Assembly: GCA_948567375.1 (NCBI GenBank)
Contig: OX419761.1
Location: 28,496,243 to 28,560,242 of the forward strand
Reading direction: 5' to 3'
Origin: Lunularia cruciata
Taxonomy: Eukaryota > Streptophyta > Marchantiopsida > Lunulariales > Lunulariaceae
Length of the DNA: 64,000 nucleotides
The position numbers were made by a program, and so were the translations under genes. This document shows positions 25,301-57,974 of this stretch, one piece after another; the stretch's first letter is position 1, and each line of letters opens with the position of its first letter. Under the pieces are notes generated by a model. The model saw nothing but the letters and a program-made list of their open reading frames with translations, did no database searches and was not told where the DNA came from.

Positions 25301-25790
25301 TATGATTGACTATTATTACCTAAGATAAATTATGGGTGTTTGAAAAGCACAATTCTCAAAACTAATATAAGAGTCATTGAACTGGCTCAACCTTTGTCTT
25401 TAACATATCACAAATAAGTCTATGTTCCAAAAATGTGAAGATCTAAGTATGGATGGTAATAATTCATCTTCATTCTATATAATATCTTATAAGAATTGGG
25501 TACAAAATCTTATCTATAAGCCCAAAGTATAATAAACTTAAAAGTCTTAAGTCTTAAGATGTTGCTGAATTCTCACAATATTTTCCTTAAAGAGGCTCTC
25601 AAACATGAGAAGAATTTATAGAAAGTTTTAAGACAGAATTTTTTTAAGCTTAGATATGCTTGTAGTGACCACATCTTCATGACAAACTATTTTTTGGAGA
25701 TAGTTTTATAATCTTTTTCTAAGCTGAAATTAAGTTATAGGCTTGTAGAAGCTAGGAAGTGGTTTTATGCAGCTTGTCTTTGGAGGGGAA
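22307..25790. other. AT-rich intergenic DNA, nothing recognised
   Basis: High AT content with frames only up to 80-85 residues and no family signatures on either strand. It may hold heavily decayed transposon sequence, but I cannot support any call. Confidence 0.5.
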
Positions 25791-25799
25791 GGCAATTGC

Positions 25800-28197
25800 A
25801 TGGGTGAGAAAAATGAACTTAAAGGAAGTGAGCTACAGGACAATCCATGCCAAAGGAGTACAAGCCCAATGATCTTCATTGCTACCAACCTTTGGCCAAG
25901 ACACCTTCACCACTAGCCACCTTCTGCCCAAATATTATTGCCACAAAGACCTTTTTTCTCAAAGGAAATACAACAGTTTGAAGGTGCCACCACTTGGAAA
26001 AGTAAGTGCCCTTCAGAACCATTGCTACCCACCAAACCCTTTGCATGTGCAGATTGACACTGTCCAACCACAATTCAATCAATTAATGCAAGTAACAACC
26101 CGGCCAAGGCTATAAAGTCAAGGTCAAAGGGAGTAATCATTCACTCTATGCAGATCATAGTAAGTTATGGGCTGGAGAACTCAAAAAGTTTCTCCCACCT
26201 TTGGCCTTAAATTTAGCAAACTTTTGTTGTAGAAATTCCCTCTACCTTTGCAAAATAAATTGATATGAAACATTGTGAGAGAATTTTGAGGAGAGGGCTT
26301 GAGATAATTCTCAATCCACCAGGGGTAATCAAGTGCACATTATATTATAGAGTTGAATTTATCCATAGCAAGAAATTAGGCTTCTTGCTATAAGATTATG
26401 AATTGAACCTCTTGGTGCTTATCCAAGAAATTAGAGACAATAGGGATCCTAGTATTTGCAACTTGAGAGGGAAAATATTTGCATGGATGGAAGAGATTGG
26501 AGGAATGTCCTTGGCTCCAAGAACTCCACATCAAGAGTGATGACATAAAAAACTCAATGGTATTGGCTAGAAAAGAGCTTAAAGAAGGGTTTGAATGCCT
26601 CCTTTGACAAGGTAAAGACCAACAATGGGTAGAGCATGACCAACTACAAGGACACCACTCAAAGAGTGATTATGAAGGCAATCATGAAGCTATTTAAATG
26701 GAAGAGGACAATTAATCTTAAAATAGCCAAGCAATCTTCTTTGAGTTCATGTACCAAGGATAGTTGGTTAACTGGGCATTCATGTTCTAAAATCTAACCA
26801 AGCACATGTGCAGAGACATGAATGAAGATGGAAAATTCATGTCTCTATCCCCATTTGTACTACATCTCTATATGGAAGTAAATCCCTTAACTCAAGAAGA
26901 GAGACAAAAGTTCCCAAGTCACTTCCATCCCAAAGGGTAATTTGAGACACATCTAGAAAGGAAGGCAATGTACCAATAGTATAACTCAACCAATGAAGAA
27001 TACACCATAGCGGGTTAAATTTGTGAAGGTAAAAGAATCAAGTAATACTCTTGGCTACAACAAGAAGAGGAAGGAATCAACAACTATAAGGCCAAAAGTG
27101 TAGGTGAAGAGGGCAAGAAAGAACCCTCAAGTGGTTGAGGAGTCTTTGGAAAGTAAGGCCAAAGATGTAGAGTGTAGGGGAGCAAGAGAGAGCAAACTTC
27201 TTCACTCTTGTAGAATAGTCTTCAAGGCAAAGGAAGAAATATTGAAGGTAAGGAAGGTGTACCAAAGGAGTGCCAAAGAGTCAAGACCTTATTACATGAG
27301 AACTCTAAAGTCAAGAAGTAGAATGCTTTATTCAAAGCGGCATAGAGCACTTATAAAAAAGAGATTAGGAAGTTGCAAGGAGAGATGAGAATTGTTTGGC
27401 TTGAGTAGACCCAAAAGCAATAGGAGTTTAAAGAGTAGATGTGAGCACAATATGAGGAGGTGGCTATCATCTAAAGAAAATTAGACATAGCTAATATCAA
27501 TGCAATAAAGATGGAAATGAAAATGCATGAATATAGCACTAAAGTATGCCTTTAATTCAAGAAGTTGCAAGAAGAATTGAAGAACAAGGAGAAGAATACC
27601 AATCAAGGCTAAATGAGAGAAGAGTTGATGGCCAAAGTCCATGCAATGCGCATTGGCCTAAAGAAAGAGAAGAAAAAGGTACTCCAACAAATAGAGGAGA
27701 CAAGGATTAGATGGTGGGCCTCATGGCAAAGGCAATTCAAGTCAGGCTGCATTGAGCCAAAATCCACAGGTTGAAGCTATAGATTCAGACTTTGAATGCA
27801 ACACCTACTGCAATAAACAACTTGATTAGTTGGCAATTTGTTTAAGGAGCACACCAACATTCTACTCCAATTTGTAGACTACAAGGGTACAATTGACATG
27901 TTAATTAGGATGTAGGAGCAAAGGTTGCTCTTCCCAATAGTATAGCTAAAGATCTTAGTAGTCAAAGATGCTCAAGCTGTAGGCCACTTGTAGCCAAAGG
28001 CTCTAATAGATGCAAATAATCTAAGTATAGGTGAACTTTGGTGTGGAAGGCATTCGATGTGAAAACCACCTTTAGGATGGAAGATCTTTGGAGTGAAATT
28101 CCTTTGTTGTGGTAGGAAACCTTTGGCCCAAAGATCTTTGCGATTGTAAGTATAAAGCTAAGTGAAATTTTTTAGTTGTAAATAGGGAAGATATAAC
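25800..28197 (+). pseudogene. Divergent, decayed relative (F) of the TG..CA coiled-coil element protein
   Basis: Read through several stops and frame changes, 26.6-26.95 kb gives YKDTTQRVIMKAIMKLFKW, then NWA, LSPFVLHLY and SHFHP in the same order and spacing as the conserved domain of copies A-D (YKDPVRRGIVSALMALLK, NWA, VPFAAHFY, SHFHP). Downstream, 27.1-27.75 kb is Lys/Glu/Gln-rich like the coiled-coil half. It is much more diverged than A-D, so it is an older subfamily. I could not define its ends. The right limit is set where sequence matching the LTR of element H starts (about 28198). Confidence 0.65.
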
Positions 28198-28714
28198 ACA
28201 TATGACAACTGTCAAGCCATTTGTAACATTGCACCTAGATTGCTTGGACATTGGAGTGGTAGTGTTGGTAGTCAAAATTATTTTGGCAGCTACTCATAGA
28301 CTACTTGTTGATGGCCAGATTTTGTGTTCAAGGTACTGACTACATGGTGAGCCCCACCGTTACATGGTGAGGCCCACTGTTACTTGCACCGTTTGCACCG
28401 TCGGGTGTGAGGCCCATTGTTACATGGTGAGGCCCACCATTACTTGCACCGTTTGCACCGTTGGGTGTGCCATCAACGGGACCGTTAGGATTTGAGACTG
28501 TTAGGATTTGAGACTTAGGTCAAGTTTAGGGGGTATACTTTTGAAGTGCAACTTCAGAGAGCTCACTTCTCTAATGTTGAGCTTTCAAGTTCTTGGTTAT
28601 GGTGGACAAAGTCCGACAAGCATCACCTAGAGTCTCTTACCTAGAGTGGGTGTGGCTTGACTATAATCAATGTCCAGTTGTTGGTAGATTGTTGAGTGAC
28701 AGATCAAGTACTAA
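28198..28714 (+). repeat. 5' LTR of element H (left part, interrupted by copy A)
   Basis: Matches the 3' LTR at 56.63-57.05 kb, including GTGTTGGTAGTCAA, AGAGAGCTCACTTCT and CAAGTTCTTGG..ATGGTGG. It resumes after copy A at 32450 and ends near 32484. The first 80 or so LTR bases seen in the 3' copy (starting TGTGGCACTATAG) are missing here. A GC-rich tandem array (ACATGGTGAGGCCCAC.. units at 28342, 28362 and 28422) is present here but absent from the 3' LTR. Confidence 0.75.
28342..28480. repeat. GC-rich tandem repeat inside the LTR of H
   Basis: Units start with ACATGGTGAG at 28342, 28362 and 28422. The two longer units (about 60 bp) each contain ACTTGCACCGTTTGCACCGT or a close variant. The 3' LTR has only a short collapsed equivalent near 56800, so the array expanded or contracted after insertion, or the LTRs come from different copies. 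Confidence 0.8.
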
Positions 28715-29086
28715 TGTGGTACCCACACTTTTGTTTTTTTTCTCAATTTTGAGGAAGAAGTTGAATTGTTCTTGTATGGCCAAAGAAGGCAAAGAAAAGT
28801 ATCCTCGGGATGTAACCCGAGGTAACGTGACTTTGGGTCATAAGGTGAGGTACTCAAAATTGCCTTGTAAGCATACAACCCAAAGTAAGAATTCTTTGTA
28901 TCGGGGGTGCTCAACCCGAGGTGAGGACAATGGAACAACTTTCCTTTGGGGCAAGACATTCAAGAAGGTACCGTTCAAAAATGGTGGTCATATGCATGAA
29001 GGACACTTAACAGTGGCAAGAGCATGCAAGAGGTGTGATTTCTTTGTAGAAACTTGAATTGAAGAAAGATGAAGAAGGCATGACTC

Positions 29087-29094
29087 TATAAAAA
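29087..29094 (+). promoter_or_regulatory. TATA box of copy A
   Basis: CTATAAAAA lies 19 bases before the start codon. The same box sits 19-26 bases before the equivalent ATG in copies B, C and D, so it is a conserved feature of the element family. Confidence 0.6.
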
Positions 29095-29113
29095 GTGGGC
29101 TAAAGATAAAACA

Positions 29114-31671
29114 ATGACAAGCAATTTCCCATTGCCACTAAGAAGTCGTCATGCAGGAGATCATGGGAAGGGAAGTATAGTCAAAGATGTGTTGGTGTGT
29201 CAAGAGGAAGTTGTGAGAGTTAATCCAAGAATCAGTAGGAAGAATAGTCCCCAGCCCAGAGTGGAATTGAGAAAGATGGGAGGTAGGAAGAAGAAATCCA
29301 AATTCATAGTGAGAAATCATGCAATTCAGAGGTTAGATGTGAATTGCAAGAATTGAGGTCTTGAGCAGGCTTCAGATCACATTCTTGGCATGGATCTGGA
29401 ATGTTAGCTTTCTTAGTTTCATGACTAAGATCATTAAGAGTAAGTGTCTCGATGGCCCTGAGGAAGAAGGGAAGAGAGGAAATCCCGCTTGATAGACAAA
29501 GTTGGATTGGAGGTTAGTACTTGGGAAGGAAGCAAGCGCAGAGCATGGTACCACGTTCTTGGGGAAGGGAGAAGTAGCCAAAGAAACCAAAGAAGTGAGA
29601 GATGCCTTCTCTTCAAAGCACATGAAGAATGGCTACAAAGTGGAGAGCTATAGGGATCCTATCAAGAGAGAGATCGTGAGTGCTCTAATGGCAATCTTGA
29701 AGCCGAGGAGAACAACTTATGTGATGAAGCACCAAGCGGTGTTCTTCCATAAGATGTTTGCAGGAGAGCCAAGTAATTGGGCAAAGTGTCTTCATGGGAG
29801 GACAAGACAGATGGTGTGGAATTTGCGGGACAAGTCACCTCCACACTACATTCTACCATTTGCAGCCCATTTCTATCTGGGGCTGAACTTGCTCAATGCG
29901 GCAAGCAAAATGGTGTCCCATTTCCATCCCAATTTAAGAAGAGATGTCGATGCGGAGGAGCATCAATACATTCTTCAGATCAAGAGCAGTGATGAGTACT
30001 TTGCGTAGACGGAGCAGAGTGTGCAGTTGGAAGTGAGCACTCCAAAGTCAAAGAAGAGGAGTTGACAAGGAGAAGAAGAAGTAGAGAAAGTGAGACCTTG
30101 GAAGGCTAGAAGGGTAAACCCGAGGAAAGGGCTGGTGGTAATCGCGTCATCGGAAGAAGAATCAGAAGGAGAAGCCGAGTGCAAATCTGAAGATTCAGAG
30201 AGGGAGGAAGAACCAAAGTTCACACTATAGAGTGGAGACATTAGTAGTGATAGTGACGATGGAGTGGAGGTGAAATCGGTACCCAAAGAGGAGAAATATA
30301 ACTCAAAACTAGAAGACAAAGTTCCAAAACAAGAGGAGAAAAAAATTACAATTCAAAGGGGAGTTTGTTCTAGATGGAAGGCAAAGTGTGGAGTAGGGTT
30401 GAGTAAGGTAAGAGAAGAGGAGGATGGAAGTTCAGGGAGTAAAGAATCCATTCCTATAAGGCGATTGTAGCTTAGAAAGCAAGTGTAGAGTGAGAAAGAG
30501 GTGAAGAGAAGACAATTCCGCAAGTCAAAATAAATACGAGTGAAGGAGTAGAGTATCAGCGGGAGGTTGTTTGCCCGTTGTTGGTGAAGTAAGTTAGAGC
30601 ACAAGAAGAAGGAGATGCAGTCGAAGTGTCCGGAGGTGAAGATTGTATTGCAAGTGTTAGCTTGATTAAAAGAAGAGAACTTGGAGTCAAAGAAGAGTAT
30701 AATTTGAGGTGAGGAGGAAAGGGAAGTACTACAAGTAGATGCAGTAGTACAAAATCAAGTGATCAAGAACTTGAAGAGAGAAGTGAGAATAGAGAGGGGC
30801 TCATAGAGCAGAGTGACAAGCGAGGGAAAGGCAAGTAGTTGAGTATGAAATCTTGAAGTAGCAATTTGCTGATTTGAGATTAGAAATTATCCATGCTATG
30901 GCAAGATTAGCAGAGAAGGAGCAAGAGCTTGATAGAGTGATGGAGAGTGTAGAAGAGAAAAAGCAGCTTTGGCAAAGAGAGTTGACAACAAGATACAGAG
31001 AGGAAGAAAGGTTGAGAGAGTTACTTCGTAATCAGGAGGAGAAGATTGTGCAAAAGGAGAAGGAGAAGGAAATTGTGAAAGCCGAGTTCAAAGCGGAATT
31101 GGCAATGTACAAAGAAGATTGGCTTGCAGATCAAGAACTTGAACGAAGAATGAGATTGGAGCCATTGAAGGAGATTGTGATCAAGATGAATGCAATGCTG
31201 AGTACAGAAGCCAACGTGTGAATTGAAGGAACAAGACTGCACAAGTTGAAGTTGTTGGTGCAAGGGACGAGGAGGAGAAATGCAAAGGATAAAGATTTGA
31301 ATGTGTTGTTGATCAGTCTCAGAACTCGTGTGGATAGAAAGATATTGGAAGTAGAAGACAATATCACAATTAGATTAGACTTAGTGAAATTAGAGATAGA
31401 TAAACTTTGGAAGGATGTAAGAGCAAAACCCAAAGTAGATGACATAGGAGTGCAGATGACTTTGGAATTACCATCGGAGGTATTAGAGAAGAGTGGGTTA
31501 GGAGATAAGGAGTTAGAAGGATTACCCACTAGTGGAATTGCAGATCAAGAAAGAGAAATGTTATAATTAATAGAAGATTTAGGAGTTATGAAACGCGATG
31601 ACAGAGTAGTAGTGAGTGAAGTTTCTTTGAGATTGAAAGCCGAGGAAGAAGTAGACATTGGATCGGATTAG
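29114..31671 (+). pseudogene. Coiled-coil element protein, copy A (broken)
   Basis: Starts MTSNFPLPLRSR, matching MSSNFPSPLRSR in copy B, and ends with the shared tail ..GSD-stop at 31669-31671. The conserved domain (about 29.28-29.97 kb: YRDPIKREIVSALMAILK, FFHKMFAGEPSNWAKC, PFAAHFYLGLNLLNA) is largely open in one frame at 29502-30008. The acidic linker and coiled coil carry at least half a dozen stops, such as TGA at 30063 and TAG at 30227 and 30468. Many are C-to-T or G-to-A changes relative to copy B. Non-functional. Function as for copy B. Confidence 0.82.
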
Positions 31672-32449
31672 TAACAGATTTGAGATTTGAAGAGTTACAT
31701 TGTCATTTTGGACCTGCAGGTTAGAAGAGTTGTTATAGAATGATATAGTTGTTAGAACTGTCATTTGCTTCACTATTTAAGAGTGGCATTTGTAGTCATA
31801 TGTTGTTTAGTGCTCATTATTTCTAAGAATAGATAAAGCAAAGTGTTGTGAAGTAGTGCTCGTCGCTTGAGTTGAATTTTGAGTATCAATTTTGTGTTTG
31901 TGTTCATGAGTACGGAAAATTTTGAAGTGCAAGTTAGTGTGCTTGTTGGATTTTGGATTCCACAGCCTTGATCTTTGTTCTTTGTGTTTGATCCTGAGTG
32001 AAGTGCAATCAAAGCAATGCCTTGACAGATCTGAGAGGAATTATAGTGTTGGTAGTATTCTACATTTGTGAATGCCGCACAAAGTTGATGTGAAGCAATT
32101 TTGATTGAGTAAGTTGTGCCTTCAGTGGAGGGGTGGAACACAATTCTGAGACAAAGTCGTTTTGCAGTGTAGTGCCATTTTTGGGAGAGCTTGAATCATC
32201 ACAATCAAGATTATTTGGAAATATTTGATGGAGTTGTGATTAAGAAGTGTTAATTTATGACAAGACTGCAAATCAATGCTTGTTACTCTCTTCTGGGTGT
32301 GGTTTCTACCTAAGAGATTAAAGACGTAACCAAGAAGAACTACATTGTGACATTTGACTTTGTATTTGACCAATTTTGAATTGTATCTCTACGGGAACAA
32401 ACTTTACTTACCTGATTACCGCAAAAGTAATATTTGCCAGGTTGTCATA

Positions 32450-32484
32450 ACTAATTTGATTGAGTGTGATTCAAGTTGTGAAAA
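32450..32484 (+). repeat. Right remnant of the 5' LTR of H
   Basis: TTGATTGAGTGTGATTCAAG with TTGTGAAAA continues the LTR after copy A and matches GATTAAGTGTGATTTGAGTT at 57.05 kb in the 3' LTR. The LTR end is placed at about 32484 by comparison with TTGTGAACA ending at 57077. Confidence 0.65.
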
Positions 32485-36349: not shown

Positions 36350-36555
36350 GCTCATGTGGTGCCCACTTTTTTTGTTTTTTTTCAAAATAAAGGAGAAGAA
36401 GTGTATAGAGAAGTCGGATTGCGCCTGTTTGGCCGAAGAAGACGAAGAAAACTGTCTTTGGGGTGAAACCCGAAGTAAAGTGACTTTGGGTCATAAGGCG
36501 AAGTACTCTGAAATGTCGTGTCAGCATACAATACAAAGTAAATTGCCTTCGGCTC

Positions 36556-36578
36556 GGGGGGGGGGGGGGGGGGGGGGG
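36556..36578. repeat. Run of 23 G in copy B
   Basis: 23 consecutive G. The same place in copy A has only five G (TATCGGGGGTGCTC). It lies in the untranslated 5' region of the element. Confidence 0.95.
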
Positions 36579-36758
36579 AGCTCAACTCGAGGCAAAGACA
36601 GTCTAACAACCTTTCGTCGGGGCAAGAAATTCAAGAAGGGGCCATTTCAAAATTGGCGGCTCATATGCGCAAAGGTGGGGTGATAGTGACAGGTGCATGC
36701 CGGAGGTGTGATTTCTCGGCAGAAACTCGAAGTGACGGAAGACGAAGAAGTGCAACTC

Positions 36759-36766
36759 TATAAAAA
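36759..36766 (+). promoter_or_regulatory. TATA box of copy B
   Basis: TATAAAAA 19 bases before the ATG at 36786. It is conserved in position in copies A, C and D. Because plant transcription normally starts about 30 bases beyond the box, the ATG at 36786 may lie at or before the transcription start; the next conserved Met (36924) could then be the real start. Confidence 0.6.
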
Positions 36767-36785
36767 TCGAAACTGCAACGACGAA

Positions 36786-39354
36786 ATGTCAAGCAATTTT
36801 CCTTCGCCGTTGAGGAGTCGTCTTGCAGGTGATCGGGGAAAGGGACATAGAGTTGGACTCGTGTTAGTGCATAAGGGAGAAGTCAAGAGAGAGAAATCGA
36901 GAGACCAAAAGAAAGTAGAAGAGATGGGAGGAGGGAAGAAGAACTCTGAATTTGTAGTGAGAAATCATGCAATTCGGAGATTAGATGTAGTAGCGAGGAT
37001 CAAAGTCTTGAGCCGACTTTGGATCACCTTTCTGGCATGGAATTGGAATGTAAGTTTTCCAGGATTCATGACAGAAATCATCGAGAGTAAATGTCTTGAT
37101 GGTCCCGAGGAAGAAGGGAAGAGAGGAAATCCGGCTTGCTGGACAGAGTCAGATTGGAGACTCATACTCGGGAAGGAAGCAGGCTCGGAGAAGGGAGCAA
37201 CGTTCTTGGGGAAAGGAGAGATAGCTCAAGAAACGCAGGAGGTGAGAGAAGCCTTCTCGTCGAAGAGGACGAAGAATGGGTATAAAGTTGAGAGTTATAA
37301 GGACCCAGTGAGGAGGGGAATTGTGAGTGCACTAATGGCCCTCCTGAAGCCGGAGAGAACTACCTATGTGATGAAACACCAAGCGGTGTTCTTTCACAAG
37401 TTATTTGCAGGAGAACCGATAAATTGGGCAAGGTGCTTTCACGGAAGAACGAGGCAGATGGTGTGGAATCTGCGAGATAAGTCGCCTCCACACTACATCG
37501 TACCATTTGCAGCCCACTTTTACCTTGGGTTAAATCTGCTCAATATGGCTGAGCGTAATCAAATGGTGTCTCATTTCCATCCTGATTTGAGAAGAGAAGT
37601 CGACGCGGAGGAGCAGCAATACATTCTCCAAATCCGGAGCACAGACAATTACTACGCGAAGACAGGGAAGAACGTGGAGGTCATTGAAAGTGCTCCGACA
37701 AAGAAGAGAACTCGGCAAGCAGACGCCGAAGAAAACAAGAAACCTCGGAAGATGCAGAAAAATAACCCGAGGCGAGGAATGGTGGTGATTGAGTCGGAAG
37801 ATGAAGACTCAGAAGGCGAAGCCGAGCTCAAGACGGAGGACTTGGAACGTGAGGAGGAACCTAAGCTGACACTGCAGAGCGGAGATACAAGCAGTGACAG
37901 TGAAGACGGTGGAGAAATGACCTCGGCACCAGCGGCTGAAGAATACGAAGAAGAAATTCAAGCCGAAGTAGAAGCCAAAGACAATGCGGCACTGGAAGAT
38001 GAAGCACCGGTGCTCGAGGAGAAGAAGATTGCAGTACAGCGAGGAATTCGCTTGAGACGTAAGGCGAGGTGTGAAGCGGGACCGAGTAGAGTGAAGGAAG
38101 AGGTAGAAGGAAGCTCGGGCAGTGAGGCATCAATTCCGATACGAAGACTTCAGAGAAGAAGGCGAGTATCGGGAGAACACGAAGAAAGAAGAGAGACTAC
38201 TCCGCGGGAGGACGAAGATATCAGTACTGGAGTAGATTACCTGCAGATGGTAGTATGCCCGCTGTTGGTGAAGTTGGAGAAGAAGAAGAAGGAGATGCAG
38301 TCGACTTGTCCAGAGGTAAAGATTGTATTGCAGGTGGTATCGAGATTAGAAGAAGAAAACTCGGAGTTGAAGAAGAGTATAACCCGAGGTGAGAAGGAGA
38401 GGGAAATACTGCAAGCGGAAGCAATGGAGAGAAGTCAGGTAATCGAAGACCTGAAGAGAGAAGTGAGCTATTGAGAGGATCTTGCGAGGAAGAGTGACGT
38501 CGTAAGGGAGAGACAAGTAGCTAAATTTGAAATCTTGAAGCAGCAGTTTGCTGATTCAAGAGTAGAGCTCATCTATGCTATGGCGAGGGTAGCATCGAAG
38601 GATCAAGAGCTCGATCGAGTGATGGAGAGTATGGAGGAGAAGAAGCAACTTTGGCAGCGAGAGTTGGCTGCGAGATATGGAGAAGAAGAGAGATTACAAG
38701 ACTTACTTCGTAATCAGGAAGAGAAGGTTGCACAGAAGGAGAAAGAGAAGGACGCGGTGAAGGCCGAATTCGAAGAAGAATTGGCGATGTACAGAGAGGA
38801 ATGGCTTGCAGATCGGGAACGAGAAAGGAAGACAAGATTAGAGCCATTGCAGGAGATAGTCCTTAGGGTAAACGTGATGTTAAGTACAGAGACCAGCGTT
38901 CAAATTGAAGAAGCGCGTCTGCACGAGTTGAAGCTGTTGGTGCAGGAGACGAAGACAAGCGAAAGATACAGATTTGAATGCCTTGTTGATTAAATTGAGA
39001 ACTCGCGTAGATAGGAAGATCTTAGAAGTAGAAGACAATATCACGATTAGATTAGACTTAGTAAGAATAGAGTTAGAAAAGCTTCGGCAGGATGTTAAAG
39101 CAAAACCCAAAGTAGATAACATCGGGATCCAAATGTCTTCGGAGTTGCCCTCAGCGACAGTAGTGAAGAGTGGATCGAAGGATGAGGAGTTAGATAGATT
39201 ACCCGCTAGTGCAATTTCAGATCAAGAAAGAGAATTGCTGGATCTGGTAGAAGATGTAGGAGATGTGAAACCCGAGGACAGAGTAGTCGGAAGTAAGATT
39301 ACTTCGGGTTCAGGGTTGAAAGCCGAGGAAGAAGTAGACATCAGATCGGATTAG
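36786..39354 (+). pseudogene. Coiled-coil element protein, copy B (one stop, one frameshift)
   Basis: Single ancestral frame of about 860 codons. The conserved domain is about 36.95-37.65 kb, with WTESDWRLILGKEAG, YKDPVRRGIVSALMALL, FFHKLFAGEPINWARCF and PPHYIVPFAAHFYLGLNLL, ending near SHFHPDLRREVDAEE. Then comes an acidic Ser/Glu-rich linker with basic patches (37.68-38.2 kb), then a long Glu/Lys/Arg/Leu coiled coil with helical heptad pattern (38.23-39.3 kb) and the tail DIRSD-stop. Breaks: an in-frame TGA at 38472-38474, and a roughly 11-bp deletion near 38965 that shifts frame; otherwise open. The frame is open upstream to 36693, but only the part from MSSNF is conserved. No DDE, RT, helicase or zinc-finger motif was found. 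The domain is loosely reminiscent of the plant transposon protein family sometimes labelled Transposase_32 (PF20167); that likeness is from memory and unproven. Confidence 0.85.
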
Positions 39355-40148
39355 TAACCAATTTGAGATTTGAAGGGGCAGATATGAAGAGGTGCATTGT
39401 CATTTCGGATCTGCAGGTTAGAACAGTTGTTGTAGAAACGGTATAGTTGTTAGAACTGTCAATTGCTTCACTACTTAAGAGTGGTATTCGCAAGAAATTG
39501 TTGTTCAGTGCTCATTATTTTTGAGAATAGATAAAGCGAAGTGCTGTGAAGTAGTGCTCGTCGCTTGAGCTTGATTCCGAGTATCAACTTTGTAATTGTG
39601 TTTGTGAATGTTTGGAGAAATTCGAAGTGCCAGTTAGAGTGCTTGTTGGATGTTGGATTCCACAGCCTTGATCTTCATTCTGTGTGTTTGATCCTGAGTG
39701 AAGTGCAATCGAAGCAATGCCTTGATAGATTTGAGAGGAATTGTAGTGTTGGTAGTATTCTGCATTTGTGAGTGTAGTGCAAAGTTGATGGGAAGCAATT
39801 TTGATCGAGGAAGTTGTGCCTTCAGTGGAAGGGTGGAACACAATTCTAAGGCGAAGTTGTTTTGTAGTGAAGTGCCATTTTTGGGAGAGCCTGAATCATC
39901 ACAATCAAGATTGTTTGGAAAGATTTGATGGAGTTGTGATTAAGGAGTGTTAATTTGTGACAAGACTGCGAGTCAGTGCTTGTTACTCTATTCTCGGTGT
40001 GGTTTCTACCTGAGAGATTAAAGACGTAACGAAGAAGAACTAAAATTGTTACTTTGCTTTGTATTTGACCGATTCTGACTCGTATCTCTGCGGGAACAAA
40101 CTTTACTTACCCGATTACCGCAAAAGTGATATTTGTCGGGTTGTCACA
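39355..40148 (+). other. Conserved 3' region of copy B
   Basis: About 790 bp after the stop, conserved in copies A and D (and partly in C and E). Small frames such as 39565-39771 recur in D at 51241-51447, but they carry changes of all types, so the conservation is probably of the DNA or RNA. The last 75 bases (from TATCTCTGCGGGAACAAAC to the end) are the best conserved part. They contain an inverted pair ACCCGA...TCGGGT about 26 bases apart just inside the CACA end. Confidence 0.7.
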
Positions 40149-40686: not shown

Positions 40687-41099
40687 TATAACAATATGGA
40701 GTTTAGCAATAAAGTTAGTTAGGACTACCAAAGTAGCAAATAAGCCAAATTAACCTAGAATATTCTAGAAGTATCTAGGAAGCTTCTTGGAAAGCTTCTT
40801 GGTTAGCTTAGCTTACATCCCAAGTAAGTAGCTTCTAGAAGCTTCTAACTAGCATAGCTTGCAAGCCAAGTAAGCAACTTCTAGAAGGAAGCTTCTTGAG
40901 AAGCTTCTCGGTTAACTTGACTTGCACTCCAAGAAAGTGGCTCAAGGAAGCTTCTTGAGAAGCTTCTCAAGATCCTTGTATGATCCATATAAATACCAGA
41001 GCCAAAGCTCATGCTAGGCATTTGGATTTTATCCACATTCAAGTGTCCCAATGTGATCTTCCATTCTCCTATTTCTCTCCTTGGTCTTGGTTTTCTACA
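40687..41099 (+). repeat. 5' LTR of the chromovirus, with HSE-like array
   Basis: Starts TATAACAATATGG (TG mutated to TA; the 3' copy has TGTAACAATAAGG) and ends TTTTCTACA. It contains an array of GAAnnTTC modules from about 40790 to 40966, including the perfect three-unit heat-shock element TTCtaGAAgcTTC at 40833-40845 and paired GAAgcTTC blocks at 40888, 40900, 40947 and 40959. TATAAATA lies at 40989. Confidence 0.9.
40989..40996 (+). promoter_or_regulatory. TATA box of the chromovirus LTR
   Basis: TATAAATA directly downstream of the GAAnnTTC array and about 110 bases before the LTR end. It is repeated in the 3' LTR (CTATAAATACC near 45113-45121). Confidence 0.7.
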
Positions 41100-41100
41100 T

Positions 41101-41116
41101 TGGTATTAGAGTAGGA
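41101..41116 (+). other. Primer binding site of the chromovirus (initiator Met tRNA type)
   Basis: TGGTATTAGAGTAGG starts one base after the 5' LTR. The usual plant gypsy site is TGGTATCAGAGC, so this is the same site with C-to-T type changes. Confidence 0.75.
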
Positions 41117-41439
41117 ATGGGATGGATGGAATTTATGGACCACCAAATCCATTTATACCAAATCATTAGGATTTCATATCCAAGTACTACCCAAACATTG
41201 TTTCACACAATTCATCACCTCATGCTTTAGGTAGGATTTTTTGCATATTATCACCTTGTTTAAGGAAATCTTGATACTTCTAGTTATAACTTATAAAGAA
41301 TGGTGGATGTATTGCATCTATGTGTTAATAAATTAGATAAATTGGGAGTAGTGGGATAGAGTAGTGGCCATAGTGGCAATATTCAATGTTATCATTATTA
41401 TGCAGCAACAAATCAAGCACCTTACTTGATTGTTGGATG

Positions 41440-42060
41440 AATGAGACCATGAATGACAAGAACATGTAGAAAGAGCACCAGTTCAAGATGGAGAAGATCA
41501 AATCCAATTTCCAAAACCCAAGGTGTTTGAAGGCAAGAATCTCTTGGGCACAATGGAGAATTTTGTGTTTTATTATAAATGTTACTTTGAAGTTACCAAT
41601 CTTCAAGATGAACAAAAATAGGTTCTCTTGGCTTCTAGCCAATTGGATGATGTGACAAAACTTTGGTGGCAATTTTGAGTGGAGTGAGCTGAATGACAAA
41701 TTGTTGTACCAATCTTGACATGGGCAGAATTAAAAAATGCAATACTTGGTTGACTTCAAGCCATAAATGCCGCATAAGCCGCATAAGATAAATATTCTAC
41801 AATTTAGTGAAGCAACCATAGAGCAAGCTTTAGAGGAAGATAAGTCTTTTTAGTAGTGTGGATCAAGCTGATTACACAAGGAAAATTTGAGGAGATGCAG
41901 GATCTTCATCAAGCAATGGTTGATCAAATAGTTTAAGAGTTTGTGAATGTGCTTTTGAATGATCTACCAAAGGGATTACCCTCTGATTGTGGTATGCCCT
42001 TCAAGATTGAGTTATTGCCAAGGAGTACTCCAATGAGTAGATCAATCTATTGACTCTCAC
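41440..42060 (+). pseudogene. Chromovirus gag remnant
   Basis: Across frames and stops it reads as a retrotransposon gag core (for example VLLASQLDDVTKLWWQF-like at about 41.62-41.68 kb, then LTWAELKNAIL). It then runs straight into NDLPKGLP..CGMPFKIELLP (about 41.96-42.02 kb), the linker just before RT. The zinc knuckle and aspartic protease expected in between are absent, so an internal deletion is inferred. Confidence 0.7.
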
Positions 42061-43320: not shown

Positions 43321-43479
43321 AATGTTAGTCGATTCCAAGATCCAAATTGAGTTCAAGACAGCTTTGCAATAGGATCCTTTCTTTTAGATGGTACAAGGTC
43401 ATCTTGTAACATGCAACAAGAACTATAATACCTTCTCCTTCAAGGGAGGCCTTCTATTCTATGAGAACCGGCTTTATGT

Positions 43480-44320: not shown

Positions 44321-44379
44321 GCAGACCACCATCATTATTATTATGCTCTTGTCTAGTAACCTATCCCTCCCACTTGATA

Positions 44380-44770: not shown

Positions 44771-44797
44771 ACGTCACTAACTAGCAATGGAGGAATA

Positions 44798-47852: not shown

Positions 47853-48060
47853 GCTGGTGTGACAACCCGGAAAATATCACTTTTGTAGTAATCAGGTAAG
47901 TAAAGTTTGTTCCCGCAGAGATATTGATAAAAAATGTCCAAATACAAAGTCAAATGTCACAAATTAGTTATTCTTGGGTTCTTCTTTAATTTCTCAGGTA
48001 AGAACTACATACAGAAGAGAGTAACAAGCACTGACTTGTCACAAATTAACACTCCTAATA

Positions 48061-51000
48061 TGTGGTACCCACATCTTTTGTTTTTTTTGTTTTGTTAGCA
48101 TTTGAAGAAGAAGTAGATGGTTAGAACCTAAAGAGGTCTAACCTAGGAAGAAATAAGAAGAAGCGGGGGTGTGAAGTAAAACCCAAAGTTGACCTCGGGT
48201 CAAGACGTGAAGTAAGAACCCAAAGACACAAAGACGAAGAAGAAGACGGAGAGACTTTGTATTGGGCGGCATGAGCGGATCTGAAGAACCTATAACAAAC
48301 ATCTTTGGAGTTGGTGCAATCAAGAAAGTACACGGGAAGAACATAATGACCTTGGGATCAAGAACTTCTTGATAGTGACAGGCAACAACTTCACCAAATT
48401 GGAAATTTGAGAGGAAGAGCAACTGAAGAGTGATTGATTGACGCAAGACTATAAAATTATGAGTTGTGCAAGGAAGTAGATCAATGTCTAGTCGCTACCC
48501 GGTTCCTATTTAGAGTCGACCCAAAGTGATGCAAATTGCAAATCCGCAAGAAGAGGAGTGGGTTAGGATTTTGGGGACGATCTTCCACAAGAGGAAAGTG
48601 AGGAAGCACACAATGACTCCAAAAATGAGTAAGCAGAGTGCGGTGAGAGGGCTTGCAATTTGTAGATTAGAAGTAATAGTGCAGATCAAAGTCTTGACAA
48701 GACTTTGTATCACGTTCCTGGCTTGGAACTAGAACTTTAGTTTTCCAAAATTCATGGTAGAAATTGCAACAAGCAATTGTAAAGATGGCCCAAAACATGA
48801 GGGAAAGAGAGTGAATCCCACATGATGGACAGAGGCAGATTAGAGAGTAGTGTTGGGAAGAGAAGTAGAAGAGGTAGGAGGTACCACCTTCTATTGAAAG
48901 TGTGATGCTTCAGAAGAGACTGCCGAAGTAAGGAATTCGTTCAATCGACCCTGCACTAAGAATGGGTATAAGGTAGACAATTATAGAGACCTTGAGCGGA
49001 GATGGATAGTAAGCGCGATGGTAGCCATGTTCAAGCCAGAGCAAACCACCTATGTTACTATGCAACAAGTGGTGTTCTTTCACCAAATGTTTGCGGGAGA
49101 GGCAATAGATTGGGCAAAATGTTTGCATCAAAGAGTGGAGCAGATGATTTTAGGATGGAGAATGGATATGCCACCTCATTACTTTGTGCCATTTGCAGCG
49201 CACTTTTATTTTGGGTTGAACTTGCTGACTTCGGAAGAATGAAGTTGAATGCGTTCGCACTTTCATCCAGATTTATGCAAGGAGGCCGATGTAGATGAGC
49301 GATATTATATGGAAATAGTGCAAGATGGGGATGCGTACTACAAGGAGAGTAGGAAGGAGAAGATCGTAGCAATTGACCTTCCAAGGGCGCAAAGGAGAGC
49401 CAAGCTTGAGAGTTGTGTTGTGACAGTACAACCCTAGAAAGTTCCAAAGATTAATCCAATGGCAGTGGTAGTGAAGACAAAGGAAGCCATGCAGGAAGAA
49501 GAAGAAGAAGAATCGAAAGGAGAAACTGGATCAAAGGAAGGAATGTTGGGAGAAGAAGAGGGGTTCACGCTATGGAGTGAAGAATTGAGCAGTAACAGCG
49601 AAGGCAAAGTAGAGGTTCAGCAAACACGATAGCAGATGAAGGAGGCCGGAAAGCCGAGTCCCAAAGTTTCCATGCTGGAATGAGGAAGTGAGAAGAAGAA
49701 GGGAGAGGAAGTCATGGCACAACCCCGAACTGCCAAGGGTAAGAATGCTCTGAATGTATATGCAGTGGGGCCTAGTAAAAGTTACTCAGGAGGAGGGAGA
49801 AATTTCAGAAGAAGAAACTTTGAAGGTGTGAAGATCGTGACTTCGGAGCAAGGTACAAGACGTAGAGTGGTTGGAACCCAAAGTCCGAGCCAATGACGCA
49901 AGGTGCAAAGGAGTGGACTATTTGTCCAGAGTTGTATGTCCACTGTTGAGGATGTTGCAGCAGAAGAAGATGGAGATGGTAAGTGCTAATCTTGAGGTAT
50001 AGGATGAATTGGCAGTAGTAAAAACTTGGAGTGCAGAAACCTCGTTGCTACAAAGTAAGTTGACGAGGGTGGAGATGGAAGTCAAAGAACTTTGGGTTGA
50101 GGAGGTTCTTTGGAGTAAGCACTTTGAGGTGACAAGGGAAGAAGTAGTAAAGAGTCGCGAGGAAGCTAAAGAGATGACCGTGATGGTTGCAGAGTTGAAA
50201 GGAGAACTTGCAGATGTGCATGTAGAGTAGATTCCACACTCCAAAGCAATTGCGGCGGTGATGGAGCAAGAGTTAGAGAGTCTCAAGAAGAAGGCAGCGG
50301 AGAAAGATCAGGCCTGACAATGAGAGTTAATGGAGCATAGTAGAGAAGAAGATTGGTTGCAAGGGTTGGTGTGAGTAGCAGAGGAGCAACTCTCTATGAA
50401 TCAGAGGGAGAAGAAGACATTGAAGGCTGAATTTGAAGATGAGCTCCAGATGTATTGTAGTGAATTGGAAGAAGAGAGGAAGAAGGAGAAGCTTAAGGTT
50501 GGAGAAGAAGCTAATGAAGTAGAAGGCATTGTCAATGAAATCAAGGCCATGCTGAGCACGGAAGTTGAATGTAAAATTGAAGAGGCGCAATTGCATGAGA
50601 TGAAGTTACTAGTGCAAGAGACAAGCAAGAGGAAGGCAAAGGATACGGAGTTGAATAATCTCTTAATGCATCTGCAAGATAGTGTAGATAGGAAGATGTT
50701 AGAGGTGGGAGACAATGTGTGTCTCAGACTAGATCTTATAAGGATGGAGTTAGCTAAACTTTGTAGTGAGGTAGAAGAAGTACAAAGACCCAAAGTCATA
50801 GAAGTAGGAGTTCAAGTGTCTTCGGAGTTGTTCTCTGAAACTTTAGAGAAGAGTGGGTCGTAAGATAAGGAAGTAGATGGATTACCCATGATCTCAATTG
50901 TAGATTGTAGTGAAGAAATTGTAGAAATAGAAGAGATATGAGTAAAATTGGATAGACCCAAGGATGGGGAAATTATAGAGAGATCATCGGGTTTGAAAGC

Positions 51001-51824
51001 CAATGACGAGGTTAACATCAGATCGGATTAGAAACATAATTGAGATTTGAAGAGGCAGATATGAAGAGGTGCATTCTCATTTTGGATTTGCAGGTTAGAA
51101 GAGTTGTTGTAGAACGGTATAGTTGTTAGAACTGTCGCTTGCTTCACTATTTAAGAGTGACATTCACAGTCTTATGTTGTTCAATGCTCATAATTTCTGA
51201 GAATAGATAAAGCAAAGTGCTGTGAAGGAGTGCTTGTTGCTTGAGCTTAATTTTGAGTATCAACCTTGTGTTTGTGCTTGTGAGTGTGTGGAGAAATTTG
51301 AAGTGCAAGTCAATGTGCTTGTTGGATGTTGGAATCCGCAACCTTGATCTTTACTTTGTGTGTTTGATCTTGAGTGAAGTGCAATCGAAGCAATGCCTTG
51401 ACAAATCTGAGAGGAATTGTAGTGTTGGTAGTATTTTGCATTTGTGAGTGCAACGTAAGGTTGATGTGGAGCAATTTCAATCGAGGAAGTTGTGCCTTCA
51501 GTGGAGGGGTGGAACAAAATTCTGAGGTGAAGTCATTTTGCAATGAAGTGCCGTTTTTGGGAGTGCTTGAATCATCACAATCAAGATTGTTTGGAAATAT
51601 TTGATGGAATTGTGATTAAGGAGTGTTAATTTGTGACGTGACTACAAATCAATGCTTGTTACTCTCTTCTAGGTGTGGTTTCTACCTGAGAGATTAAAGA
51701 TGCAACCAAGAAGAATTGAAATTGTTACTTTGCTTTGTATTTGACCAATTATGACTTGTACCTCTGCGGGAACAAACTTTACTTACCTGAGAACCGCAAA
51801 AGTGATATTTTCCGAGTTGTCTCA
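48061..51824 (+). mobile_element. TG..CA coiled-coil element, copy D (nested in C)
   Basis: Begins TGTGGTACCCACA (48061) and ends GAGTTGTCTCA (51824). Flanked by TAATA (48056-48060) and TAATC (51825-51829). The 3' region of copies A, B and D shows the unoccupied sequence at this point (CACTCCTTAATCACAAC when read in the orientation of C), which confirms insertion of one family member into another. Confidence 0.87.
48484..51031 (+). pseudogene. Coiled-coil element protein, copy D (broken)
   Basis: Starts ATGTCTAGTCGC 26 bases after a TATAAAAT box (48450-48457) and ends ..NIRSD-stop at 51029-51031. Conserved domain pieces: ICRLEVIVQIKVLTRL (48.66-48.71 kb), then FFHQMFAGEAIDWAKC and PPHYFVPFAAHFYFGLNLL within 49018-49242. 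The coiled-coil half is open at 50396-50863. Several stops and frame changes separate these. It has more divergent wording than A and B, so C and D form a second subfamily. Confidence 0.8.
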
Positions 51825-51899
51825 TAATCACAAATCCATCAAATCTTATTACATAATCTTGATTGTGATGATTCAATCTCTCCCAAAAATGGCACTTCA

Positions 51900-54385
51900 C
51901 TACAAAATGACTCACTATTTCTACTACCTCTTCACTATAAACTAGAATTGGACTGGTGGGTAACTTATCTAACTTGTTTCCTCCCAACCCACTCTTCTCT
52001 AAAGTGTCAAGTGCTAAATACAAAGACACTTGCACTCCTACCTCTCTTACTTTGGACTTTGTCTCTAACCTCAGGGAACTACAAAGACTCTCCAATTCTG
52101 AATGTACTAAGTCTAATCTAAGACACACATTGTCTTCTGCTTCTAATATCTTCCTATCTACTCAACCTCTTAAGCAAATCAACAATTGGTTCAATTTGAT
52201 GTCCTTTGCTTTCTTCTTCCTTGTTTCCTACACTAACAACTTTAACTCGTGTAGTCTTGCTTCCTCCAATTGGACTTTAGACATTGTCCCTAATATTGCT
52301 TTCATTCTTGCAATGACATCTTTGCTTGCATCTTGTCTTGACATCTATAACTTCTCTCTCTCTGCTTAAAATTCTTTCCAATACATCTTTACTTCATCTT
52401 CCAACTCGACCTTCAATGCTTCCTTCTTCTTCACACTCTGCCTAAGCTGTTCTTCCATTCCTTTGACCAACCCCACAATCATTTTTCTTCTCTATCACGC
52501 AAGGCCAACTCTTGTTGGTAAGCCCGATCTTTCTTTGCTACATTGGCCTTCAAACTCTTGAACTCTTGATCCATAATAGCAGCCATGGCCTTCAAATGAA
52601 TAACTTCTACATGTGTATTGTGCACTTTTGCCCGCAAGGCCTCAAACTTCACTAATTGCTCCTTCTGATCTTCTTCTTGCCATGGCTTTGCCTCTCTTTG
52701 CAAAGTCCCTCGTTAGACTCTCAATCTCCTTTCTCCTTAGCTCTACATCATTACAAAGCTCTACTAGCTCCCACTCTCCCCAACTCATCTTCTTTTTCAA
52801 CTCCAAATTTTCATCACTCATATATTGTACTACTACCAATTTGTCCTTCACTCTTGAGTGATCGTGCTTCAATTCATCTTTCTTCTTTTGTAATTGTACT
52901 ACAAAAGGACAAACTACTTGTGACAAGTACTCTACTCCACTCAAGATTTTGGATTTCTCAACTTGCTTTGGCTCTTTGCTTCTTACCTCTTCTACTAGAG
53001 CTTTACGCCAAAGTCATTATCTTCTAACTCTTAGAGGTTCTTCATCTGAACTAGCCTTTTCTTCTTCTAACAAACTCACATTACTTAGTTCTGCTACCGC
53101 AATAACAACACTTCTTCTTTTTCCCCGCTGAACTTCTGCCATTGGCTTGGCCTCCAAAGTTTCTTCTATTTCAGCTAGATGAAACTCCTTCTCTCCTTCT
53201 TTGGGATCATCTCTACCTCATTGCTGAACTTCTACCTCACCTTTCCTCCCACTGCTCTACTCTTCACTTTGCAACATCATCTCTGGTTCTTCTTCTTCTT
53301 TCAAGCCTTCTTCATTGCACTTGGCTTCACCTTCCAACTCTTCTGCTCCCGATGACTCATCAAGCACTACAACTTCTTATCTTGGGTTTACTTTCCGCAC
53401 CTTCTTTGGCTTGACTGGCAACAAACTCTCCTCTAGGCAAATTTGCTTTTGTTTCTTCAAACTGGCCACTATCACTCATAGATATTGCCCTGTGCACAAA
53501 TTGTGCTCACCACTACTTTGGATCTGTTGAATATACTGCTATTCCTTGCCATCTATAGTCTTTTGTAAGTCGGGATGGAAATATGACACCATCTTTCTTT
53601 GCTAGACTCCTTCATCAAGTTCAATCTAAAGTAGAAATGGGTAGGGAATTGCACTAGATAATCTTGTTGTCCAACACCACACCATCTGCCATGTTCTTTG
53701 TTGAAAACACTTTGCCCAATTTATTGGCGCACCTGCAAACATTTGGTGGAAGAAGACTGCCTGATGCTTTGTCACATAAGTCATGCAATTTTGCTTGAAA
53801 AGTGCCATCATTGCCCCAATGATGCTTTGCTTGACTGGGTCTTGATAGGTATCCACCTTGTACCTGTTCTTCGTGCATGGCGATGTAAAGGAATTTTGAA
53901 TCTCATCCATCTCCTCTACAGACTCTCCTTTTCCAAGAAGGTAGCTCCAGTTTCCTTACCAGCCTTTCTCCCCAATACCAGTCTCCAATCCGCCTCTATC
54001 CATTGAGCCAGATTGCCTCTCTTTCCTTCACCCTCAGGCCCCTCCTTACAATCACTCAGGGCTGCTTTGGCCATGAACCCTAGAAGCTCAAATTCTAGTT
54101 CCATGCTAGAAAATTGATCCAAAGTCTACTTAGAATTTCAATTTGAGCTATCATATCTAATCTTTGAATCACTAGATTTCTTACTACGAGCAATAGACTC
54201 TTCTTCTCACCCTTCTTTGGCATTGTGTGATCTCTAGTGCATGGTAATTGAAAGATGATTCTACCATCCCTTGGTCTTGAAATCCTAACTCCTTTAGCCT
54301 TGCTAAACATCAAACACTCAACTTGCTTCTCTACAAGAACTCCTTTAGGTTGACTAGTCAATGGCATAGAATACTTGCAAGACAT
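51900..54385 (-). pseudogene. Coiled-coil element protein, copy C (broken, C-terminus deleted)
   Basis: Minus-strand start MSCKYSMPLTSQ at 54385, with TATAAAAT just upstream (54412-54419). Conserved domain: GKRGNLAQWIEADWRLVLGR (54.0 kb), YQDPVKQSIIGAMMALFK, FFHQMFAGAPINWAKCF (53.7-53.8 kb). Coiled-coil pieces lie at 52642-52944 and 52479-52703. The frame then runs through KVREVGVQVS to EEVVEI and enters 3' region sequence because of an internal deletion. Multiple stops; dead. Confidence 0.8.
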
Positions 54386-54816
54386 TTCACAATCTCCTCA
54401 ACAAAGTCCTAATTTTATAGTTCCTCATTGATAAGCCATTCCTCCGTCACTCGTCACTAAAATGCACCTTTTCTGCATGACTTCTTGTTAGTGTTATACA
54501 GGTTTGGTGGTTCACACCTTGTCTACCATCTTTTTGCATGTACTTTCTTGATTTGCCTCTACAAAGAGAAGTTGTTATGCTGTCTTTGCATCGAGTTGAT
54601 CACCCCAATACGAAGTCCACTTACTTTGGATCTCTCTTTGCTGGTTTTGATCTCAGTACTTCATTTTGGACTCAGAGTTATGTTACTTTGGATTTCAACC
54701 TAAAGTAACCCTTCTTTGCCTTCTATTGCCATTTGTGTTCAACACGACTTCATCTATACACTTCTTCTTCAAAACCGCACAAAAATTAACAAAACCAAAA
54801 AAATGTGGGTACCACA

Positions 54817-56552: not shown

Positions 56553-57077
56553 TGTGGCACTATAGACTCCATGTATGACTTATGTGTATGTTGTGTAACA
56601 ATGTATGTTGTGTAGCAATATATATATGCACAACAATTGTCATGCCATTTGTAGCATCACACCTACATTGCTCGGATGTTGGAGTAGCAGTGTTGGTAGT
56701 CAAGAGTATTTGGCAATTACTTATAGATTCCTTGTTGAGTTACTCATAGATTATTTATTGATGGTCAGATTTTATGTTTGGGATGTTGACTATATGGTGG
56801 AGCTTACCTTCACTTGCACTATCAATGAGACTATTAGAGTTGGAGACCTAGGTTGAGGTCAAGGGATATACTTTCAAAGTGCAGCTCTAGAGAGCTCACT
56901 TCTTTGATGTTGAGCCTTTGAGTTCTTGGCTATGGTGGGTAGAGGCTAACAAGCATCACCTAGAATCTCTTAGCTAGAGTGGGCATGGCTTGATTCTAAT
57001 CAATGCCCAATTATTGGCAGATTGTTGAGTGATAGATCAAGTACTTATCCGATTAAGTGTGATTTGAGTTGTGAACA
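56553..57077 (+). repeat. 3' LTR of element H
   Basis: Starts TGTGGCACTATAGACTCC and ends TTGTGAACA. It matches the 5' LTR over most of its length and carries the unoccupied version of the copy A target (AAGTACTTATCC). Confidence 0.8.
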
Positions 57078-57087
57078 AATTGATTAT

Positions 57088-57190
57088 TGTGGCACTTTAG
57101 AGTCCATGTATGACTTATGTGTGAGTTGTGCTTCTATAGTTCATGATTTTGACAGTGATGTATATTATATTGTGATGTATATATACAAAC
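57088..57190 (+). repeat. Second, truncated LTR start of the H family
   Basis: TGTGGCACTTTAGAGTCC and CATGTATGACTTATGTGT repeat the start of the LTR at 56553, only ten bases after that LTR ends. It is cut by fragment E. This suggests tandem LTRs of related elements or a recombination product. Confidence 0.65.
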
Positions 57191-57449
57191 TACAACATAG
57201 CAAGTATCACTTTTGCAATAATTGATGAGTAATTGTTTGTTCTCACAAAGATATTGGTAAGGAATGGTCAAATACAAAGTAAAAAGTAACTATGCAATAC
57301 TTTTTAATTTTTTTTTAGCCTCTTTGGTAGAAATCCCACCCAAAAGAGAGTAACAAGCTCTCAACAACAACTCTTGTCACAATTAAACATAACCTACAAT
57401 CACAATTCATCAAACTCTTTTTGTTTAATCTTGATTGTGATGATTCAAT
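57191..57449 (-). mobile_element. TG..CA coiled-coil element, 3' end fragment E (minus strand)
   Basis: About 260 bases match the complement of the 3' end of copies A-D: TATCACTTTTGC, GGTCAAATACAAAG, AGAGTAACAAGC and CTTGATTGTGATGATTCA in order. The terminal TGTGACAACC is decayed to TACAACAT. The match stops where an LTR begins at 57453, so the rest of E was displaced or lost. Confidence 0.75.
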
Positions 57450-57452
57450 TAA

Positions 57453-57974
57453 TGTAATACCAATAGCTAGATAGATTATCTAGAGATGAAAATTGACTTG
57501 GTAACATCTAGAAGAATGTTAGGTATGATGGGTTAGGTATGATGGGTTAGGTAGATCTGTGAGCCGGTTTGTCTCTCACTTGGGATGAACCTTTGATGGC
57601 TATTATGGTAGCGCACCATGGACTAAGAAAGCAAGGAACCCAAACTCTATCATATTCTTCCAAGGCTAACACTCCAAGACTCAAGACATTGCTCACTAGA
57701 GAACTCAATGAGAGAGATAATTGCAAATGAGGAGGCCAAACACCTAGAAAGGCCAAACACCTAGAAATACCAAGTCAACACACTAGAATCCACAATAGTG
57801 GTGACCTTTTCCACTTCCTCTAAAGTAAGGTCCCCACTATCTTAGCTATGACTAACTTTAGTTAATCATGACTAATGTAGAACAATCCTTTATCTATATA
57901 AATAATGTCTCTCAAGTACTTGTAATACTAAGTAAATATCACAATACCACACACATGCACAAATGGGTGTTACA
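57453..57974 (-). repeat. LTR of a minus-strand gypsy element (3' LTR)
   Basis: On the minus strand it starts TGTAACACCCATTTG at 57974, right after a polypurine tract (57975-57985, CCAGGGGTAAA on the minus strand), and ends GGTATTACA at 57453. A TTTATATAG box lies near 57893-57901. About 100 bases at the 57453 end resemble, in plus orientation, the start of the LTR of element P, so the boundary region may be a mosaic. A short GATGGGTTAGGTAT tandem occurs near 57525-57553. Confidence 0.65.

Follow-up and report, generated by a model that had tools for sequence, protein, structure and literature searches.

The 64,000-nucleotide stretch of Lunularia cruciata DNA considered here (GenBank assembly GCA_948567375.1, contig OX419761.1, positions 28,496,243 to 28,560,242 of the forward strand; referred to below as the window) carries four copies, designated A to D, of a 3.8-kb mobile element with one long open reading frame (ORF). 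Each copy is probably, at a likelihood of about 0.7, a solo long terminal repeat (LTR) of an LTR retrotransposon, with the ORF in the sense orientation. This reading is based on the combination of TG..CA ends, a 5-bp target duplication and the lack of reverse transcriptase (RT) and of terminal inverted repeats (TIRs), since together these features are the anatomy of a solo LTR. The first-pass annotation of the window described the element as one without LTRs, dependent either on a new mobility factor or on an integrase provided in trans, and overlooked the solo LTR, which is the simplest reading.

The copies were recovered by comparison of the window with itself (matches of at least 80 bp), together with the split of copy C by copy D. 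Copy A (28715..32449, plus strand) is full and decayed, copy B (36355..40148, plus strand) is full and the youngest as judged by its CpG content, and copy D (48061..51824, plus strand) is full and inserted into C. The two parts of C lie on the minus strand, the 3′ part (47858..48060) to the left of D and the 5′ part (51825..54816), which lacks the portion matching B 39250-39854, to the right. The observed to expected ratio of CpG is 0.90 in B, 0.49 in D, 0.41 in A and 0.23 in C, with 0.41 for the whole window. Positions 1-3810/3811 of a profile model were matched at 28715-32449, 36355-40148 and 48061-51824 on the plus strand, and C was matched in three pieces between 54816 and 47858 on the minus strand; the profile was built from the same four copies, cut at the ends proposed in the first-pass annotation, and is no independent test of these ends, which are tested by the flanks. 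A run of 23 G at 36556-36578 in B, where A, C and D have 3-5 G, may be a sequencing or slippage feature.

All four copies start with TGTGGT[A/G]CCCAC. The 3′ ends are GTTGTCACA in B and C, GTTGTCATA in A and GTTGTCTCA in D, and their last bases are TGTCACA (B, C), TGTCATA (A) and TGTCTCA (D); the pattern TG..CA is present in all copies except A, which ends in TA. The ends earlier reported as shared are the same on the 5′ side, but vary slightly on the 3′ side. The available text of PMC3601003 gives TGTTRNR..YNYAACA as the consensus of the LTR integrase signal, and the 5′ ends fit it in 6 of 7 positions in all four copies, the 3′ ends in 5, 6, 6 and 5 of 7 (A, B, C and D). The flanking 5-mers are ACTAA/ACTAA for A (28710..28714 and 32450..32454, plus strand), GCTCA/ACTCA for B, GCTGG/ACTAG for C and TAATA/TAATC for D. 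This corresponds to 0, 1, 2 and 1 mismatches, and comparing the other lengths from 3 to 9 lowers this number in none of the copies. The product of the chances of these matches, taken from random 5-mer pairs of the window, is around 6e-8. An unfilled paralogue of the insertion site of A is located at 56826..57086 (plus strand) and contains the 5 bp once, as ACTTA at 57043-57047. The left flank of A (28493-28715) matches 56826-57048 at 82%, and the right flank (32450-32493) continues from 57043 to 57086. Similarly, when the halves of C are aligned to A and B, the insertion site of D is uninterrupted in both of these copies. The flanking 5-bp repeats, the unfilled site of A and the uninterrupted D site in A and B together show that the element has real ends and real mobility. 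The self-comparison, the flanks and the unfilled site thus uphold the earlier description of four copies with TGTGG..CACA-type ends and 5-bp duplications, and the fit to the consensus, the duplications and the empty sites do the same for integrase-type ends and genuine mobility.

In a repeat search of A, B and D, the longest internal direct repeats were 30, 29 and 32 nt, respectively (70-72% identical), and the ends of these copies showed no inverted repeats of at least 18 nt, in agreement with the earlier statement that there is neither an LTR pair nor a long TIR. No Pfam family was found above the cut-off for the ORFs of the element (best weak match E 0.013), and these ORFs within the 3.8 kb gave no Pfam match to gag, RT, RNase H, integrase (rve) or transposase, which bears out the reported absence of RT and of a DDE motif. 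Such a lack of gag-pol domains is as a solo LTR would have it. In the 30 bp following A, B, C and D, the best primer-binding 12-mers reach 6, 6, 7 and 6 of 12 by a yardstick of one tRNA type, and the gypsy element at 40.7-45.2 kb reaches 10/12 with the same yardstick. A missing primer site is expected if the interior of the retrotransposon is gone; it is predicted by a solo LTR and equally by an element of non-LTR type. Rfam, used at its gathering thresholds, matched nothing in the window.

From this anatomy we infer a full parent with the order LTR, primer-binding site, gag-pol, LTR, in which the LTRs would be very long, around 3.7-3.8 kb. The integrase of the parent would insert it, giving rise to the TGTG..CACA ends and the 5-bp duplication, and the interior would later be removed by recombination between the two LTRs. 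We likewise infer that the first ~3 kb of the LTR would form U3 and hold a TATA box of its own as well as the ORF of ~810 codons, which encodes an N-terminal domain, an acidic linker and a helical coiled-coil part, and that the 0.8-kb tail behind the ORF would form R-U5. By analogy with accessory ORFs in other retrotransposons of plants, the protein might be a nuclear or particle-associated accessory factor. Transfer of strong-stop DNA between co-packaged relatives would reassort the tail against the part upstream of it.

Ordinary solo LTRs have TG..CA ends, a 5-bp duplication and no interior, and the copies resemble them in all three respects; unlike the copies, ordinary solo LTRs are not known to hold a long conserved ORF. 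A gene within the U3 of an LTR is known from the mouse mammary tumour virus, whose sag gene is likewise present in every solo LTR. The sag protein is unrelated, the host here is a plant, and U3 is far longer here. In plants, the closest comparison is offered by the rice Ty3/gypsy elements Retrosat2, RIRE3 and RIRE8, which in the available text of PMC3485330 share with the copies an LTR of at least ~3 kb, short inverted LTR termini of the type TGTnnnACCC and an extra, fast-diverging ORF (ORF0), a likeness by description only. Their ORF0 is located upstream of gag-pol, whereas the liverwort ORF is enclosed by the TG and CA ends. The same text gives Retrosat2 LTRs of over 3.2 kb, 10-bp inverted LTR ends TGTCACACCC-GGGCGTGACA and 429 solo LTRs versus 162 complete elements (PMC3485330), and in its many solo LTRs Retrosat2 again resembles the element. 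If the ratio of solo to complete elements were similar to this 429:162, a sample of four copies that are all solo would be unsurprising. Extra ORFs of other plant LTR elements are reviewed in the available part of PMC7264820 and include gene23 of Grande (own promoter, nuclear product), an ORF of RIRE2, ORF4 of Retand (Transposase_28) and ORF2 of PvRetro13 (SMC domain). They are similar to the liverwort ORF as single accessory ORFs kept in most copies of a family, but lie between pol and the 3′ LTR, while the liverwort ORF is inside the copy (PMC7264820). A Pfam domain is named in that text for Retand only (Transposase_28, PF04195; PMC7264820), and the liverwort ORF matches neither this nor any other family above the Pfam cut-off. 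As the extra ORFs covered by that text are internal, the position of the gene inside the LTR would be what is new. The host gene described in the available text of PMC1560396 lies within a retrotransposon but not within an LTR. For Lunularia cruciata itself, the available text of PMC9985172 states that Ty3/gypsy elements are in excess and that the fraction of "unknown" repeats is large, the transposon content of the complex thalloid liverworts being generally low.

The ORF of B extends from the ATG at 36924 to the stop codon at 39352-39354, with a length of ~810 codons, and is interrupted by a stop codon at 38472-38474 and a frameshift near 38.95 kb. Its first part (36924..38474, plus strand) comprises the N-terminal domain (N-domain) up to ~37673, the acidic linker up to ~38261 and the start of the helical/coiled-coil part, and ends at the stop codon. 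The second, helical/coiled-coil part (38475..38993, plus strand) continues in the same frame, and the C-terminal part (38932..39354, plus strand) follows in another frame through one frameshift. The C-terminal ends are alike, ..EVDIRSD in B, ..EVDIGSD in A and ..EVNIRSD in D. Of the four full copies with a single-ORF layout earlier reported, the common layout stands, but C is without the part noted above and the ORF is broken in every copy, the in-frame stops per aligned codons being 13/779 in A, 1/800 in B, 13/740 in C and 19/768 in D. Between the N-domains of A and B, differences at the first, second and third codon position are 0.157, 0.085 and 0.395, which is the pattern of a protein gene. 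Synonymous differences (pS) are near saturation, at 0.58-0.88 outside the C-terminal part and 0.40-0.57 inside it. The ratio of nonsynonymous to synonymous rates (dN/dS) is 0.08 and 0.13 in the N-domain, 0.11 and 0.22 in the linker and 0.14-0.27 (four pairs) in the coiled-coil part, dS being not estimable in 10/18 pair comparisons of these first three parts while 8/18 give dN/dS. In the C-terminal part the ratio is 0.29-0.66 (six pairs), and all these values are rough, as the copies were aligned as DNA in the frame of B and a few codons close to the frameshift are therefore misread. The ORF is a genuine gene under purifying selection. The sequence CTATAAAA, at 36758..36765 in B (plus strand), does not vary among the four copies, in which it occupies element positions 372 (A), 404 (B), 397 (C) and 389 (D), within a 5′ part that is otherwise 30-53% different, and is likely a TATA-type promoter of the ORF.

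The product of this gene, as far as its sequence tells, is a protein without a known family in the searches made. In a database of 5.8 billion proteins, 7998 candidates were scored for a 516-residue part of the ORF, none of them at E 1e-3, and for residues 20-250 there were 518 candidates, of which none reached E 0.1; the search needs shared 5-mers and proteomes often omit transposons, which makes this absence, in a database that includes liverwort proteins, weak evidence. The N-domain of 259 amino acids gave zero Pfam families at E up to 10, and its core of 144 amino acids two chance-level families only (E 0.09 and 0.16). The search of the Protein Data Bank (PDB) by sequence gave one chance match (E 0.43), and a three-row profile none at E up to 10. 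Neither Pfam nor the PDB gave a credible match to a known gag or transposase. Among viral contigs, 134 pattern matches to the N-domain were obtained and 0 confirmed; a 20-mer of the 3′ end of the element had 0 matches in viral contigs and 2 in bacterial contigs, which were taken as chance. AlphaFold2 models reached a mean pLDDT of 42 and 56, too poor to judge the fold, that of a Gag capsid included. In a scan for heptads, the value observed for the presumed coiled-coil part was reached by 15/300 shuffles, compared to 154/300 for the N-domain and 265/300 for the linker. The coiled-coil protein of the first-pass annotation is hence retained in a reduced form, the heptad pattern weakly suggesting a coiled coil.

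The non-coding 3′ tail of the element (39355..40148 in B, plus strand), read here as R-U5, is far more uniform among the four copies, at 12-18% difference, than the sequence upstream of it. In the last 0.8 kb, A, B and D differ from one another by 12-14%, and C, compared over 285 columns, differs from them by 15-18%, as against 25% for A-B and 42-43% for the other five pairs in the ORF and 30-53% in the 5′ non-coding part. The change sets in around the stop codon. In 60-bp windows, the A-D/B-D distance declines from 0.51/0.47 at 39240 to 0.26/0.22 at 39300 and 0.07-0.15 at 39360-39420, and is then 0.03-0.22. The relationships between the copies also differ. Transversions in the ORF are tree-like (A-B 199, A-D 475 and B-D 478 of 2283 columns), also at third positions alone (87, 174 and 175 of 655), whereas in the tail they are star-like (A-B 28, A-D 29 and B-D 31 of 777 columns). 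The ratio of A-B transversions to the mean of A-D and B-D is 0.42 in the ORF (95% bootstrap 0.36-0.47) and 0.93 in the tail (0.67-1.27). Such a star-like tail is what the swapping of strong-stop DNA between co-packaged relatives would give. Copies with long-separated proteins either share one recent tail or have it held by strong constraint, and the data do not tell the two apart. The tail is not fixed for ever, as an older fragment, copy E, shares no more than 71-73% identity with A, B and D there. According to the available text of PMC3601003, R-U5 is generally more conserved than U3.

Several points weigh against a solo LTR with a sense gene. Within the 64-kb window, with its four full copies and two partial relatives, no direct pair of copies flanking an interior was found. 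It is unusual for an LTR to contain such a long gene, and in the open-licence literature no plant retrotransposon whose LTR holds a gene was found among the matches listed, as judged by title and the start of the abstract. The tail could be uniform through constraint instead of swapping, and its border is spread over ~100 bp, with a lower pS (0.40-0.57) already in the C-terminal part of the ORF. A second TATA sequence at this border is not convincing, as TATTTAAG of A and D is TACTTAAG in B, the youngest copy; a second promoter at this place was rejected for not being invariant in B. Lastly, copy E seems to give no link to gypsy, because an LTR belonging to the gypsy element next to it appears to separate E from the pol.

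Copy E (57190..57453, minus strand) comprises only the last ~255 bp of the element and is located ~0.57 kb downstream of a minus-strand gypsy pol, in the same orientation. Its assignment as the 3′ LTR of this gypsy element was rejected, as the pol is followed, by eye, by an LTR start of its own, TGTAACACCC at 57974, and the LTR would end about where E is cut (57453). By eye, the gypsy LTR extends from TGTAACACCC (57974) to GGTATTACA (~57453), and an integrase-like ORF at 58.3-58.5 kb was likewise recognized by eye, without a Pfam match. The gypsy element seems to have interrupted E. Copy F (25661..28204, plus strand) is a distant, heavily decayed relative, immediately to the left of the repeat interrupted by A. 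Only its N-domain core (26728-27015) is certain, at 31% identity and a tblastn E of 6e-11. The 5′ end TGTAGTGACC at 25661, the TATA at ~26108 and the right end of F are guesses, the end alignments being weak and without a shuffle control.

Alternatively, the 3.8-kb unit could be a complete mobile element without terminal repeats, whose TGTG..CACA ends are joined to the target DNA, at a stagger of 5 bp, by its own protein or by an integrase acting in trans. This is unlikely, and the "new mobility factor" of the first-pass annotation, which belongs here, is without positive evidence. Such an element would move as DNA, or as cDNA by an unknown route. The reverse transcription of elements of this kind needs LTR repeats, so the earlier suggestion of a passenger in trans without LTRs implies movement as DNA. 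DNA transposons of such integrase chemistry usually carry longer TIRs, and the only inverted match at the ends of the copies is the short TGTG/CACA. In favor of a complete element, all four full copies share both ends with nothing beyond them, the one gene has long been conserved by selection behind an invariant TATA, its protein has no relative in the searches made, and shared machinery acting in trans could recognize the element by its uniform 3′ tail. On the other side, no enzyme-like domain was found in the ORFs, and solo LTRs account for the anatomy without a new mechanism. The more specific form of this explanation, a self-contained eukaryotic element that has no LTRs or TIRs, encodes a single coiled-coil protein and perhaps borrows an integrase for its 5-bp duplication, is decidedly improbable.

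A solo LTR could also be read in the opposite direction, with the ORF antisense to the retrotransposon, an LTR starting at the 3′ end of the element (TGTGACAACCCG..) and, inside it, an antisense accessory ORF similar to those of Grande, RIRE2 and Retand. The reversed 3′ end TGTGACAACC does resemble the start of the Retrosat2 LTR, TGTCACACCC, in the available text on that element (PMC3485330), as well as TGTAACACCC at 57974, the by-eye LTR start of the neighboring gypsy element, and antisense extra ORFs are known, one of them with its own promoter (available text of PMC7264820). In this orientation, however, the uniform 0.8 kb would become the start of U3, which is usually more variable according to the available text of PMC3601003, and the ORF would fall in R-U5. 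This direction is very doubtful. No novel anatomy would be required for a non-autonomous element with small internal LTRs or for an ordinary gypsy element in decay, but either is hardly credible given internal direct repeats of at most 29-32 nt at 70-72% in A, B and D, ORFs without a match to gag or pol, and a layout that is the same in copies of very different CpG decay.

An ordinary gypsy element at 40689-45224 has LTRs of ~411-425 bp (86% identical), a decayed primer site of tRNA-Met type (10/12) after the 5′ LTR and a match to a Tf2-1-like SH3 domain (E 1.1e-15). Copy C seems to interrupt a gypsy-like pol, of which the left part at 46.6-47.86 kb is RT/RNase H-like by eye and the right part lies at 54.82-55.56 kb; an integrase core (rve, E 1.8e-8) is found at 55302-55559, to the right of C. 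To the left of the unfilled A site, a PHD-finger fragment (56086-56361, plus strand; Pfam PHD, E 1.9e-6) lies in repeat-rich sequence and possibly belongs to another mobile element. The sequence attgtggcact..ccatgtatgacttatgtgt is seen by eye on both sides of the repeat holding this site (~56551-56590 and 57085-57125), and the repeat may be an LTR-like or a tandem unit. Away from these elements, a gene for an EF-hand calmodulin-like protein (2643-3383, minus strand) matches Marchantia polymorpha at 73%, Riccia sorocarpa at 69%, Riccia fluitans at 69% and 65%, and then Calypogeia at 47% (best 120 of 294 matches). Judged by this single gene, the host would be a complex thalloid liverwort close to Marchantia and Riccia, or a near relative of that group.

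If a two-LTR parent exists, this family keeps an accessory gene inside its LTR, and the gene survives in every solo LTR. Such an LTR gene could, in the absence of gag-pol, still be expressed, come under selection or become domesticated. If the reading is true, a uniform tail following strongly diverged ORFs would also document how co-packaged relatives have exchanged templates in nature. If there is no two-LTR parent, the copies represent an element without a known mechanism, which would be more important still.

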